A DNA stretch of 34,467 nt. Origin: Patescibacteria group bacterium. Lineage in GTDB: Bacteria; Patescibacteriota; SICC01. Each line of letters opens with the position of its first letter. Position 1 is the stretch's first letter. The stretch covers positions 1-34,467 of the forward strand of contig SICC01000006.1 in assembly GCA_009694835.1 (NCBI GenBank). The letters are read 5' to 3'. Below are positions 859 through 16,660 of this stretch, in pieces. Under the pieces are notes generated by a model. That model made no database searches, was not told where the DNA came from, and saw only the letters and a list, made by a program, of their open reading frames with translations. Both the position numbers and the translations under genes were made by a program.

Positions 859-887
859 TAGACAGAGTGTTTAGAGTAGGGTAGTAT
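859..887 (+). promoter_or_regulatory. Putative sigma-A promoter of mraZ/dcw cluster: TAGACA-17 bp-TAGTAT
   Basis: -35 TAGACA 859-864, -10 TAGTAT 882-887, spacer 17 bp, just upstream of the MraZ boxes and mraZ. Confidence 0.6.
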
Positions 888-898
888 GCCTGCAGCAG

Positions 899-923
899 TG
901 GGGAGCTATGGGGAAAAGTGGGG
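899..923 (+). promoter_or_regulatory. MraZ-binding repeats: three TGGGG boxes at 10-bp period
   Basis: TGGGG at 899-903, 909-913 and 919-923, i.e. direct repeats separated by 5 nt, matching the known TGGGN MraZ operator architecture. Confidence 0.8.
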
Positions 924-938
924 ATAAGCTCTACAACC

Positions 939-947
939 TGTGGATAA
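939..947 (-). promoter_or_regulatory. Consensus DnaA box TTATCCACA (plus strand TGTGGATAA)
   Basis: Exact match to TTATNCACA; a one-mismatch copy (TTATCCCCA) overlaps the third MraZ box at 919-927. Confidence 0.5.
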
Positions 948-12773: not shown

Positions 12774-15542
12774 TTAGAATTTGATTACGGTGTCTTCGTT
12801 CAGCTCGTCACCTTGAGCTGGTGCGGACGGTGCCGGAGCAGCCTGAGGAGTTGGTTGAGGCTGGGGCGCGGGCTGAGGGCGCGATTGTGGCTTCGGGGCT
12901 GGTTTTCGTTCTGGTTGAGCTTTTGGTTGCGGCCGCCCGACCGGTTTCGGATCCGGCTGAGGTTTCTTTGCTTGCGGCGGCTTTGGCTGTGGTTTAGGTT
13001 TTATTTCAGCTTTCGGCTTTGGGGCTGGAGCGGGCTGAGTCCCCACTTGATCCGCGAAAACACGTTCCTTGTCGAGGTACGACTGGAAGCGACGTTTCTT
13101 GTCATCTTCAGAGGCTTCCGGGGAACCCGTACTCCCCTCCTCAATTTCAGATTCAACGTTGTCCCGACTAGACGAATATTTCTCACGCGTCTTAGTGACC
13201 ACTTCGTCACGGTACGGCGTAGTCTCACTCGGCAGCGGAATAGTCTTGGCCGAGAAGGCGGCACCGGTTACGCCATCAACGGCTAGTTTGAGGTAAATGT
13301 GGTACTTATCAAGATTGACCACGTCGACCTCGGTGAAGACAGGTTCGAATTCGCGGGCCAGCCACTGCGCGTCGGCGGCCCCAACTCGAAAGCTAATAAT
13401 CGTACCAACGTTGCCAAAGACGGCGTCGCGGACTTCTTCTGGCATTTGGGAAATGTATTGATTGGCCAACGCCAGGTTTAAACGATACTTTCGGGCTTCG
13501 GACAGGATCGAGACAAAACTCTCGGTGGCAAAGTTTTGAAACTCATCAACGTAGAGGAAGAAGTCTTTTCGTTCGGATTCGGCAATGTCGGCCCGACTCA
13601 TAGCGGCCAGCTGAATCTTTGTAATCATCATGGCACCAAGGAGGGCGGCCGAGTCTTCACCCAACTCCCCTTTCGAAAGCTTGAGCAGCAAGATCTTGCC
13701 GTCATCCATGACTTCACGGAGATTGATGGCCGAGCGCTTCTGGCCGACGATATTCCGGATGGTGGTCGAACCGAGGAACTGGCCGACCTTGTTCTGAATC
13801 GGGGCGATGGCTTCGGTCCGGAAGCGGTCGTTGTACCCGCCGAACTCCTCGACCCAGAATTCCTTCACGACCGGGTCCTCAATGTGCTTGATCACTTCCT
13901 CGCGAAACTTGGCATTAGCCAGCAGTCGCGGTACGTCGAGTAGCGTTGATTCCGGGTAATCGAGCAGGGCCAGGACGGTATTTCGTAGAATATGTTCCAG
14001 TCGCGGCCCCCAGGAGTGGCCGTAAATTTTTTCGAAAATACTGACAATGCCGGAAGCCACTAACGGCTTGGCGTCCTTGTCAACTTTTTCGAGAATATTG
14101 AAGGCAATCGGGTGTGAGCGGTCGGCCGGATTAAAGACAATGACGTCTTCGACCCGATCACTTGGAATATGGTCGAGAATACTTTCGATGAAGTCACCGT
14201 GTGGGTCGACCACGGCCACTCCCCGTCCGTTGTGCATATCGGCCAGCACCATATTCTCGAGCATATTGGTCTTACCCATGCCCGTCTTACCGATGGCGTA
14301 GACGTGGCGGCGGCGGTCATCTTCCTTCAGCCCGAAGCGCGTCAGGTGGTTGCGGAAGCTTGTCTCCGCGAACACGGACAGTCCTTTTTCACTTCCTTCG
14401 AACGGCAGGTCCTTTGGTGGCTCACCCTTGCTGGAAGCCGTCCAGGAAATCGTTGGCGTTTCGACTGAAATGTTCGGAAGATGGAAAATTGAGGCCAGCT
14501 CTTCGATATTCAACGTCAGTCCCTTGCCTATAAACATCCGGGCACGGTACGGCGGAATGACCTTCTCGATTTTGGTTTGGATCTTACCAGCCGTAAAGCC
14601 GTTGAGGTTGGTGGTGTTGTACTGCTTGAAGGCCCCAACGGCCCCGTTCAAACGGTTGCGAGCTTGGGCTGGACTGGAGGACACTGCCACGATTCGAATC
14701 TTAGTTTCGTAGCCAAGCTTGGCCGACTTCTCTTTCAGGCCAGCACTGATGGCTTCGTCGACTTGGACCGGTTGTGGTGGTGCCGGTTTGGACGCTCCCC
14801 CGCCTCCGGTCGTTGGTTGTGGCGAACTGGTGGCGGCACTAAACAGTTCACCAATGAATCCGCCGATACCGCTGAGGAGGCCGGACGCTCCCCCCCGGCT
14901 TCCGCCGCTCTGCAGCCGTTTCAGTTCAGCTTCGCCCTTATTGCGCCAGCTGTCATCAACTGGTCGAGCCAGGATTTGGATCCAGAGTTCTTCTCCGTCG
15001 TTCAAGTCACCGAGCACGGCGGTGATGCCAGACAACGGGTCGACATCCTCGAAGTTCAAGAAGGTCTTAATTGGATAGACATCTTTGCGGACCAGTTTCA
15101 GTTCCGTACTGGCGACGGACTTGCCGGCCAGGTCGGTGTCGCTATCGACATAGTCATCGGCTTTGGCGATGGCGGCTTTCGGGTACTGGGCGTAGATCTG
15201 GCCTTCGACGAACGACTTCTGAGCTTCCGGCACATAGACATAGAAATTGATTCGATTATCTTTCGAAGCGATTTCCATGCCAATCTGCTCCTGCATACCG
15301 CCCTCGAAGAAGAGCGCGCGGGAGTTCTTGTGAATACCGTGGAGTGAGGCGAACATCTGTTCGGCCGCCACTGGGGCTTTCTCGTTTTCCTTTGGGACGC
15401 TGACGCGGAGCAGGACGTACTTCTGACCATCAACCCACTGGCGTTTGCGGAAATGCTGAATCGCCAGGAACAACAGTACCGGTACGATGATCCACCATGT
15501 ATACATGAGGATCGTGAGAAAGAAATTCACGATCGAATCCAT
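12774..15542 (-). CDS. VirD4/TraG/TraD-like (type IV secretion coupling/HerA-FtsK superfamily) membrane ATPase with Pro/Lys-rich C-terminal tail
   Basis: N-terminal TM; Walker A AIGKTGMGKTNML; VVDPHGDFIESIL; Walker B FFLYVDEFQNFATESF; SEARKYRLNLALANQYISQM; tail rich in PKPQP repeats. Confidence 0.88.
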   Translation of the reverse strand: MDSIVNFFLTILMYTWWIIVPVLLFLAIQHFRKRQWVDGQKYVLLRVSVPKENEKAPVAAEQMFASLHGIHKNSRALFFEGGMQEQIGMEIASKDNRINFYVYVPEAQKSFVEGQIYAQYPKAAIAKADDYVDSDTDLAGKSVASTELKLVRKDVYPIKTFLNFEDVDPLSGITAVLGDLNDGEELWIQILARPVDDSWRNKGEAELKRLQSGGSRGGASGLLSGIGGFIGELFSAATSSPQPTTGGGGASKPAPPQPVQVDEAISAGLKEKSAKLGYETKIRIVAVSSSPAQARNRLNGAVGAFKQYNTTNLNGFTAGKIQTKIEKVIPPYRARMFIGKGLTLNIEELASIFHLPNISVETPTISWTASSKGEPPKDLPFEGSEKGLSVFAETSFRNHLTRFGLKEDDRRRHVYAIGKTGMGKTNMLENMVLADMHNGRGVAVVDPHGDFIESILDHIPSDRVEDVIVFNPADRSHPIAFNILEKVDKDAKPLVASGIVSIFEKIYGHSWGPRLEHILRNTVLALLDYPESTLLDVPRLLANAKFREEVIKHIEDPVVKEFWVEEFGGYNDRFRTEAIAPIQNKVGQFLGSTTIRNIVGQKRSAINLREVMDDGKILLLKLSKGELGEDSAALLGAMMITKIQLAAMSRADIAESERKDFFLYVDEFQNFATESFVSILSEARKYRLNLALANQYISQMPEEVRDAVFGNVGTIISFRVGAADAQWLAREFEPVFTEVDVVNLDKYHIYLKLAVDGVTGAAFSAKTIPLPSETTPYRDEVVTKTREKYSSSRDNVESEIEEGSTGSPEASEDDKKRRFQSYLDKERVFADQVGTQPAPAPKPKAEIKPKPQPKPPQAKKPQPDPKPVGRPQPKAQPERKPAPKPQSRPQPAPQPQPTPQAAPAPSAPAQGDELNEDTVIKF

Positions 15543-15553
15543 AAGACCCTAGA

Positions 15554-16660
15554 TTACCCTTTCACGCCCTCGGCAATAACGTATTGGGACTTTCCAACGC
15601 GCGCAAATTTGGATTTGTCTTGGAGATTAATCAGGATGGTATTCTCCGAGACGTGTCGTTGCTTGAGCACTTTTTCCATGACGTCGGCACGTTCCATTGG
15701 CTCACCCGATGTGGTCAGGACTTGCTTAATGACGTCTGAGACCGTACCGGTCAGGTAGCCCCAATCTTTCAGGGCGTAAATCCCCCGACCAATCAGCACG
15801 AATTCATCACCGTTGATGAGCTCGTTATGCACGGCCTGGGTAGTGACGGGTTTCGCATCGAATTTGGCTTCCCTGATCTTCTCGGTGATGTCCTTGAAGT
15901 GGAGCGGTGTCTGCGTCTCTTTTAAGACGAACAATGTTTTCTCACGAATGTTCTTCGGGTTGATGTCTGACCAGGTGGCCAGACCGTAATGGGTGGCGTC
16001 AGCCATGACGAATCCTTTACTGTATTGCAGAACGGATTCGACCAGTGGCTCGGTGACCAAGTGGGCGTGGTCGCCAAGTTGGTCTTGTTTGGTGACGGCA
16101 TCCAGCAGTTCAGCCGGTGTCAGCGATTTCTTAGCGGTCTTGAGGGCGCTAACAAGTAGCGGTCGGGCGGCATTTGCAGCTTCTAGGTGGGCTTTGGACA
16201 GCCCATACGACGCGTCGACTTCTTTAGACTCAGCTTCGAGAACGACTTCACCAGAGGCTTCGAGCAGGAACTTCATCGAGTTGATGCTAGCTGGTGTCTG
16301 TTGGCTTTCTGGCAGGAATTCCTGGGCTAGTTGGGTTTGTCCCATCACTCCCCCGGCTTCACGAATCAGTCCCATCGCGAGGCGGAGGATGTCGGTCAGC
16401 GGACCTTTCTTTAACTGGTCTTTGAATTTGGTCAAGCCCTGTTTCTCGATCTGGCGGACGCGTTCGCGACTAACCCCGTAGCCGGATCCAATCTCTTGGA
16501 GCGTCTCAACTGATCCGTCGCGCAGTCCTGAGCGCCTGGCAATGACCTCAGATTCACGCGGCCGGAGCTCGTCTAAGGCGGCGAGTACGGCTTCGTGGGT
16601 CGGAACCTGCTTCTTGAGCTGGTCCTGGGTAATCTGAATGATGGTTTTTAGGTCAGCCAT
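15554..16660 (-). CDS. Sigma-70 region 4-like HTH protein with HARE-HTH (RpoE delta-like) domain
   Basis: LRPRESEVIARRSGLRDGSVETLQEIGSGYGVSRERVRQIEKQGLTKFK (sigma region 4.2); TLFVLKETQTPLHFKDITEKI...NELINGDEFVLIGRGIYALKDWG (HARE-HTH-like). No region 2. Confidence 0.8.
   Translation of the reverse strand: MADLKTIIQITQDQLKKQVPTHEAVLAALDELRPRESEVIARRSGLRDGSVETLQEIGSGYGVSRERVRQIEKQGLTKFKDQLKKGPLTDILRLAMGLIREAGGVMGQTQLAQEFLPESQQTPASINSMKFLLEASGEVVLEAESKEVDASYGLSKAHLEAANAARPLLVSALKTAKKSLTPAELLDAVTKQDQLGDHAHLVTEPLVESVLQYSKGFVMADATHYGLATWSDINPKNIREKTLFVLKETQTPLHFKDITEKIREAKFDAKPVTTQAVHNELINGDEFVLIGRGIYALKDWGYLTGTVSDVIKQVLTTSGEPMERADVMEKVLKQRHVSENTILINLQDKSKFARVGKSQYVIAEGVKG

Follow-up and report, generated by a model that had tools for sequence, protein, structure and literature searches.

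How do ultra-small, regulator-poor bacteria couple division to replication? The question is raised by the main promoter of the division and cell-wall (dcw) cluster of a Patescibacteria group bacterium (GenBank assembly GCA_009694835.1), where a preliminary description had placed MraZ boxes beside a perfect DnaA box and proposed that the two proteins compete for shared sites. We analyzed the 34,467-nucleotide stretch that carries this promoter (contig SICC01000006.1, positions 1 to 34,467, forward strand; hereafter, the window), its source genome (G000, a 578-kb assembly that is 83% complete), and mraZ upstream regions gathered across the phylum. The closest relatives of G000 are G001 and G002; the class consists of three genomes in all, so close-range conservation depends on two relatives.

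The predicted dcw promoter and its putative MraZ boxes

The window opens with the dcw cluster: mraZ, rsmH, an FtsI-type PBP, a Mur ligase, mraY, ftsW, murG, and murC, with a weak match to ftsQ. The first gene, mraZ (968 to 1492, + strand, ATG at 968), encodes 174 amino acids, matches PF02381 (E = 1e-29), and scores 98.1 bits against TIGR00242, slightly below the cut-off of 98.35. A Shine-Dalgarno-like AAAGGAA precedes it at 958 to 964. The second gene, rsmH (mraW), occupies 1725 to 2639 on the same strand, and the cluster continues from there with the FtsI-type PBP. The homologues that bear names are from Patescibacteria.

Upstream of mraZ, the predicted dcw promoter, called from consensus and conservation, has a −35 hexamer TAGACA (859 to 864, + strand) that is the same in G001 and G002. 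After a 17-nt spacer, the −10 hexamer TAGTAT (882 to 887, + strand) aligns with TATTAT in G001 and TATGAT in G002. Transcription would start near 894. Three direct repeats then follow on the + strand with a period of 10 bp: box 1, GTGGGGAGCT (898 to 907); box 2, ATGGGGAAAA (908 to 917), an ATGG variant that aligns with the most conserved box of the phylum, GTGGGGAAAA; and box 3, GTGGGGATAA (918 to 927). The array thus carries three TGGG/GTG repeats and lies between the −10 hexamer and the first gene of the dcw cluster, as in an MraZ operator. The window has a single TGGGG trio at this spacing (899, 909, and 919); when up to two mismatches are allowed, shuffles give 0.05, and the exact form was absent from 300 Markov windows. 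A relaxed trio (RTGGNGN4RTGGNGN4RTGG) is present once per genome in G000, G001, and G002, solely at mraZ. RNA structure across 895 to 985 shows no excess over shuffles (z = −0.5).

In 133 mraZ upstream regions from the phylum, we counted 237 GTGG pairs with a 10-bp offset on the coding strand and 0 on the opposite strand. Anchoring on the best box revealed regular boxes at −20, −10, 0, and +10, with additional GTGG both within the −10 region and next to it. A clear MraZ array is present in 126 of the 133 upstream regions and in 213 of 228 overall, so that 213 Patescibacteria mraZ promoters carry GTGG repeats at 10-bp intervals downstream of the −10. Together, the 10-bp array, its location 3' of the −10, and its conservation throughout the phylum support well the MraZ operator that the preliminary description had proposed, and the promoter hexamers, the TGGGG trio, and the DnaA 9-mer at 939 to 947 all lie where it had placed them.

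Several other features of the window were recorded. A 131-aa open reading frame divergent from mraZ (435 to 830, − strand) has no Pfam match and no relative in G001 or G002, and may not be a real gene. Directly past the dcw cluster is a gene for a 922-aa TraD/TrwB-like ATPase (12774 to 15542, − strand); it adjoins a sigma-like gene (15554 to 16660, − strand) whose product has an N-terminal sigma-70 region 4 followed by a HARE-HTH domain and is not a full sigma factor. The gap between mraZ and rsmH contains a strong hairpin (1641 to 1676, z = −7.0) that recurs in G001 and G002 with an altered yet paired stem and the flanks TTCTTTCGGG and CCCGAAGGG..ACCTTA; it has no Rfam match, nor does Rfam match anywhere in the window. 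A second long hairpin 3' of mraZ (1507 to 1571, z = −5.5), followed by an A run on the + strand, is a possible processing or attenuation site.

The terminal element at 939

The 9-mer at 939 to 947 reads TGTGGATAA on the + strand and is a perfect DnaA box, TTATCCACA, on the − strand, where it fits the pattern TTATNCACA. Its spacing from the array had been described as a step of +20, in register with the boxes. That step came from aligning TGTGG with TGGGG; in the GTGG frame, the positions are 898, 908, 918, and 940, which puts the element 22 bp past box 3. Box 3 itself includes TGGGGATAA, which does differ from the DnaA 9-mer by one mismatch, as had been noted. The CAC core belongs to the DnaA box, and because the mismatch falls inside it, TGGGGATAA is a poor candidate.

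TTATCCACA occurs once in the window (0.18 in shuffles). The whole-genome count called for in the preliminary description gave three occurrences in 578 kb versus two for the reversed control, so the 9-mer is unremarkable by itself; it is the location that is notable. No second TTATNCACA was found in the window, including outside the array, and with three in the genome the site does not belong to a multi-box cluster. The sole other exact TTATCCACA sites in the genome are G000:C8:25980 and G000:C1:3911. One of these two lies shortly 5' of the ATG of a frame that by eye resembles methionine sulfoxide reductase B, and the other lies just 3' of a frame that by eye is response-regulator-like.

Conservation in relatives, which the preliminary description had named among its checks, was divided. 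GTGGATAA is kept in G000, G001, and G002, with about one extra turn before the terminal element in G000. The leading T that completes the DnaA 9-mer is kept in G001, whereas G002 has an A and reads AGTGGATAA. Within the larger set, a terminal GTGGATAA element with at most one mismatch is found in 65 of 126 regions versus 1.8% in shuffles. It is located mostly 12 to 13 bp past the last regular box, with jumps of +11 to +14 or +21 to +23, a pattern that the +22 step in the window matches. Given this recurrence and the GTGGATAA at 940 in the window, the element at 939 is part of the conserved anatomy of the putative operator; as judged by alignment, it is the conserved terminal element and not an isolated extra.

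By its sequence, the 939 copy is compatible with use by MraZ, by DnaA, or by the two together. We give an even chance to the first of these, under which TGTGGATAA at 939 would be purely an MraZ element and its likeness to a DnaA box coincidental, GTGGATAA being eight ninths of that box. MraZ is a ring of eight in the relatives that have been studied, and the element would then be the last contact of the octamer. Exact terminal GTGGATAA is preceded by T in just 26 of 52 cases and followed by C in half, so MraZ-type use accounts for the 939 copy without DnaA. With the T present in only half and lost in G002, the copy is not assignable to DnaA by sequence. The same reading is favored by box −10 of the array, which also frequently reads TGTGGATAA, and by the forward-only orientation of the array. 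Against it, the terminal element is off the 10-bp frame (+11 to +14), and a non-G fifth base is found in 6 of 32 terminal sites preceded by T versus 2 of 28 without T, a weak difference. This reading also leaves unexplained the 9-mers outside the array described below, which occur in both orientations.

The DnaA of G000 is equipped to read such a box: it matches PF08299 (E = 4e-28), and its domain IV retains the motif GGRDHTTV.HA, here GGRDHTTVIHA. Since the sequence at 939 satisfies the DnaA box, DnaA can probably bind there as well. The dnaA-dnaN gap of the family of G000 contains boxes of the types TCATCCACA, TGTGCAT, and TGTGTATGA, all of which keep TGTG; the sites in G000 and G001 that keep the T therefore fit, and the T-less site in G002 does not. 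The oriC-like boxes in this family resemble TCATNCACA or TGTGNATGA, so it is uncertain that TTATCCACA is the preferred DnaA site of G000.

DnaA 9-mers beside mraZ across the phylum

We counted exact TGTGGATAA/TTATCCACA outside the array, in a zone from −300 to −46 (22.3 kb, 126 genomes). There were 18 forward and 17 reverse occurrences, in 35 of the 126 genomes and 23 families. In the same zone, 300 permuted 9-mers gave a mean of 0.2 and a maximum of 3, compared with 35. A replicate of 58 further, non-overlapping promoters yielded 29 occurrences (permuted mean 0.1, maximum 2). In a blind count of all 9-mers outside the array, TTATCCACA ranked first, appearing in 66 of 204 segments versus 0.69 expected. 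DnaA 9-mers outside the array are thus enriched about 100-fold upstream of mraZ in many families. Because kinship inflates such counts, we used as guards the number of families represented, the replicate set, and promoter controls. Among the controls, the rpsL promoter had 0 DnaA 9-mers in 9.6 kb and the ftsZ promoter had 1 in 11.7 kb, versus 18 in 9.9 kb for mraZ in the same relatives. The frequency per mraZ locus is similar to that at the dnaA locus (15 in 30 loci).

The sites are concentrated near the gene. At 105 mraZ loci, 67 sites lie in the final 300 bp versus 11 in the other ~290 kb. Like DnaA boxes, the outside sites tolerate variation at the fifth base, and 84% of them begin with the T. 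Overall, 117 of 213 promoters contain one or more exact 9-mers in the interval from −300 to +46. In some divergent lineages the MraZ array is present but no DnaA 9-mer lies near mraZ, though their relatives have DnaA; the trait is thus common without being universal. In the divergent lineages L304, L305, L306, L308, L318, and L321, TGTGGATAA is followed, at a distance of ~20 to 110 bp, by a GTGG pair with more GTGGG boxes beyond it. Terminal and upstream DnaA boxes showed no anticorrelation of the kind expected if one replaced the other. We also considered whether loss of the box is tied to a missing DnaA. Three genomes without a DnaA match (G003, G019, and G029) lack the box, but so do DnaA-bearing relatives (G007, a relative of G029; G037 and G054, relatives of G019), so the losses lend no support to this idea.

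These separate boxes beside the mraZ promoter indicate DnaA as a putative second regulator in many lineages. They might instead be datA-like titration or replication-timing sites with no role in transcription, which we regard as unlikely. One box per locus at a variable distance and on either strand would suit such a role, but single boxes are poor titrators. Two observations suit a transcriptional role: the outside sites peak no farther than 200 bp from the mraZ start, and those in forward orientation cluster near −60 to −63 relative to the anchor box, immediately 5' of the −35. It is very improbable that TTATCCACA near mraZ reflects chance or a general intergenic enrichment in AT-rich genomes: the 9-mer does exceed its reversed control genome-wide in many relatives, but the rpsL control is empty, the ftsZ control is nearly so, and permuted 9-mers yield only 0.1 to 0.2.

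For the phylum, the proposed link between replication and division is therefore supported, since the TTATCCACA excess lies upstream of mraZ and not of rpsL or ftsZ. At 939 itself the link is only a candidate.

Comparison with known systems and a model for dcw control

The promoter resembles that of E. coli mraZ (Eraso et al. 2014, as cited in PMC8475190), which likewise has three GTGGG-type boxes at 10-bp spacing 3' of the −10, with mraZ at the head of dcw. In the MG1655 sequence (NC_000913.3), the boxes GTGGGAAATT, GTGGGGCAAA, and GTGGGAATAA are laid out as in the window. Unlike the window, the E. coli locus lacks both TTATNCACA, over the 851 bp covered, and a terminal GTGGATAA. MraZ boxes have been described as repeats of 7 nt, separated by 3-nt spacers and located 3' of the −10 (PMC7761207), and MraZ sites as AAAGTG[T/G] repeats (PMC8475190). 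The sites of Burkholderia cenocepacia share the 10-bp period, the GTG core, and the overlap with the transcription start, but they comprise four boxes, and no DnaA site is described (PMC7761207). Those of Mollicutes (Fisunov 2016, via PMC8475190) share the GTG core and the overlap with the transcription start, again with no DnaA site described.

At the E. coli mioC promoter, overlap between a site for MraZ and a DnaA box is already reported (PMC4446571, citing Eraso 2014). As at our locus, MraZ and DnaA sites there share one promoter and link division to replication. In contrast, mioC is beside oriC and outside dcw, whereas in G001, a single-contig genome, a long distance separates mraZ from dnaA (88 kb and 445 kb). 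DnaA acts as a transcription factor at Caulobacter crescentus ftsZ and Bacillus subtilis ftsL (reviewed in PMC8203912). Those promoters, too, place DnaA sites at division genes, but the candidate site in the window is inside the mraZ operator itself. mraZ is absent from that review, and our search of openly available literature found no paper linking mraZ and DnaA boxes in Patescibacteria.

The explanation that we favor, and consider likely as a whole, is a dcw promoter autorepressed by MraZ, with a terminal element at 939 that is also compatible with DnaA, and with DnaA as a second regulator in many lineages. The main promoter of the division and cell-wall cluster would be shut off by its own first product: MraZ would sit on the three GTGG/ATGG boxes, which are spaced by one turn and span roughly +4 to +33, and its presence over the first transcribed bases would block RNA polymerase at the transcription start. 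Wherever boxes for it are present, DnaA would be a second input that varies over the replication cycle, and on hybrid boxes MraZ and DnaA would be mutually exclusive. We infer the binding by either protein, the repression, and the competition from sequence. The broader proposal, that DnaA directly controls dcw in much of Patescibacteria through boxes at the mraZ promoter, including MraZ/DnaA hybrids, and so links replication to division in one step, is more tentative, and we place it somewhat below an even chance.

The overlap of MraZ and DnaA sites, so far on record at E. coli mioC, would thereby extend to the dcw cluster. If the proposal is true, these gene-poor cells would couple the initiation of replication to division in a single step, and the DnaA box, which leads the over-represented words in mraZ promoters across the phylum, would offer a concrete, testable answer to how their division is coupled to replication.
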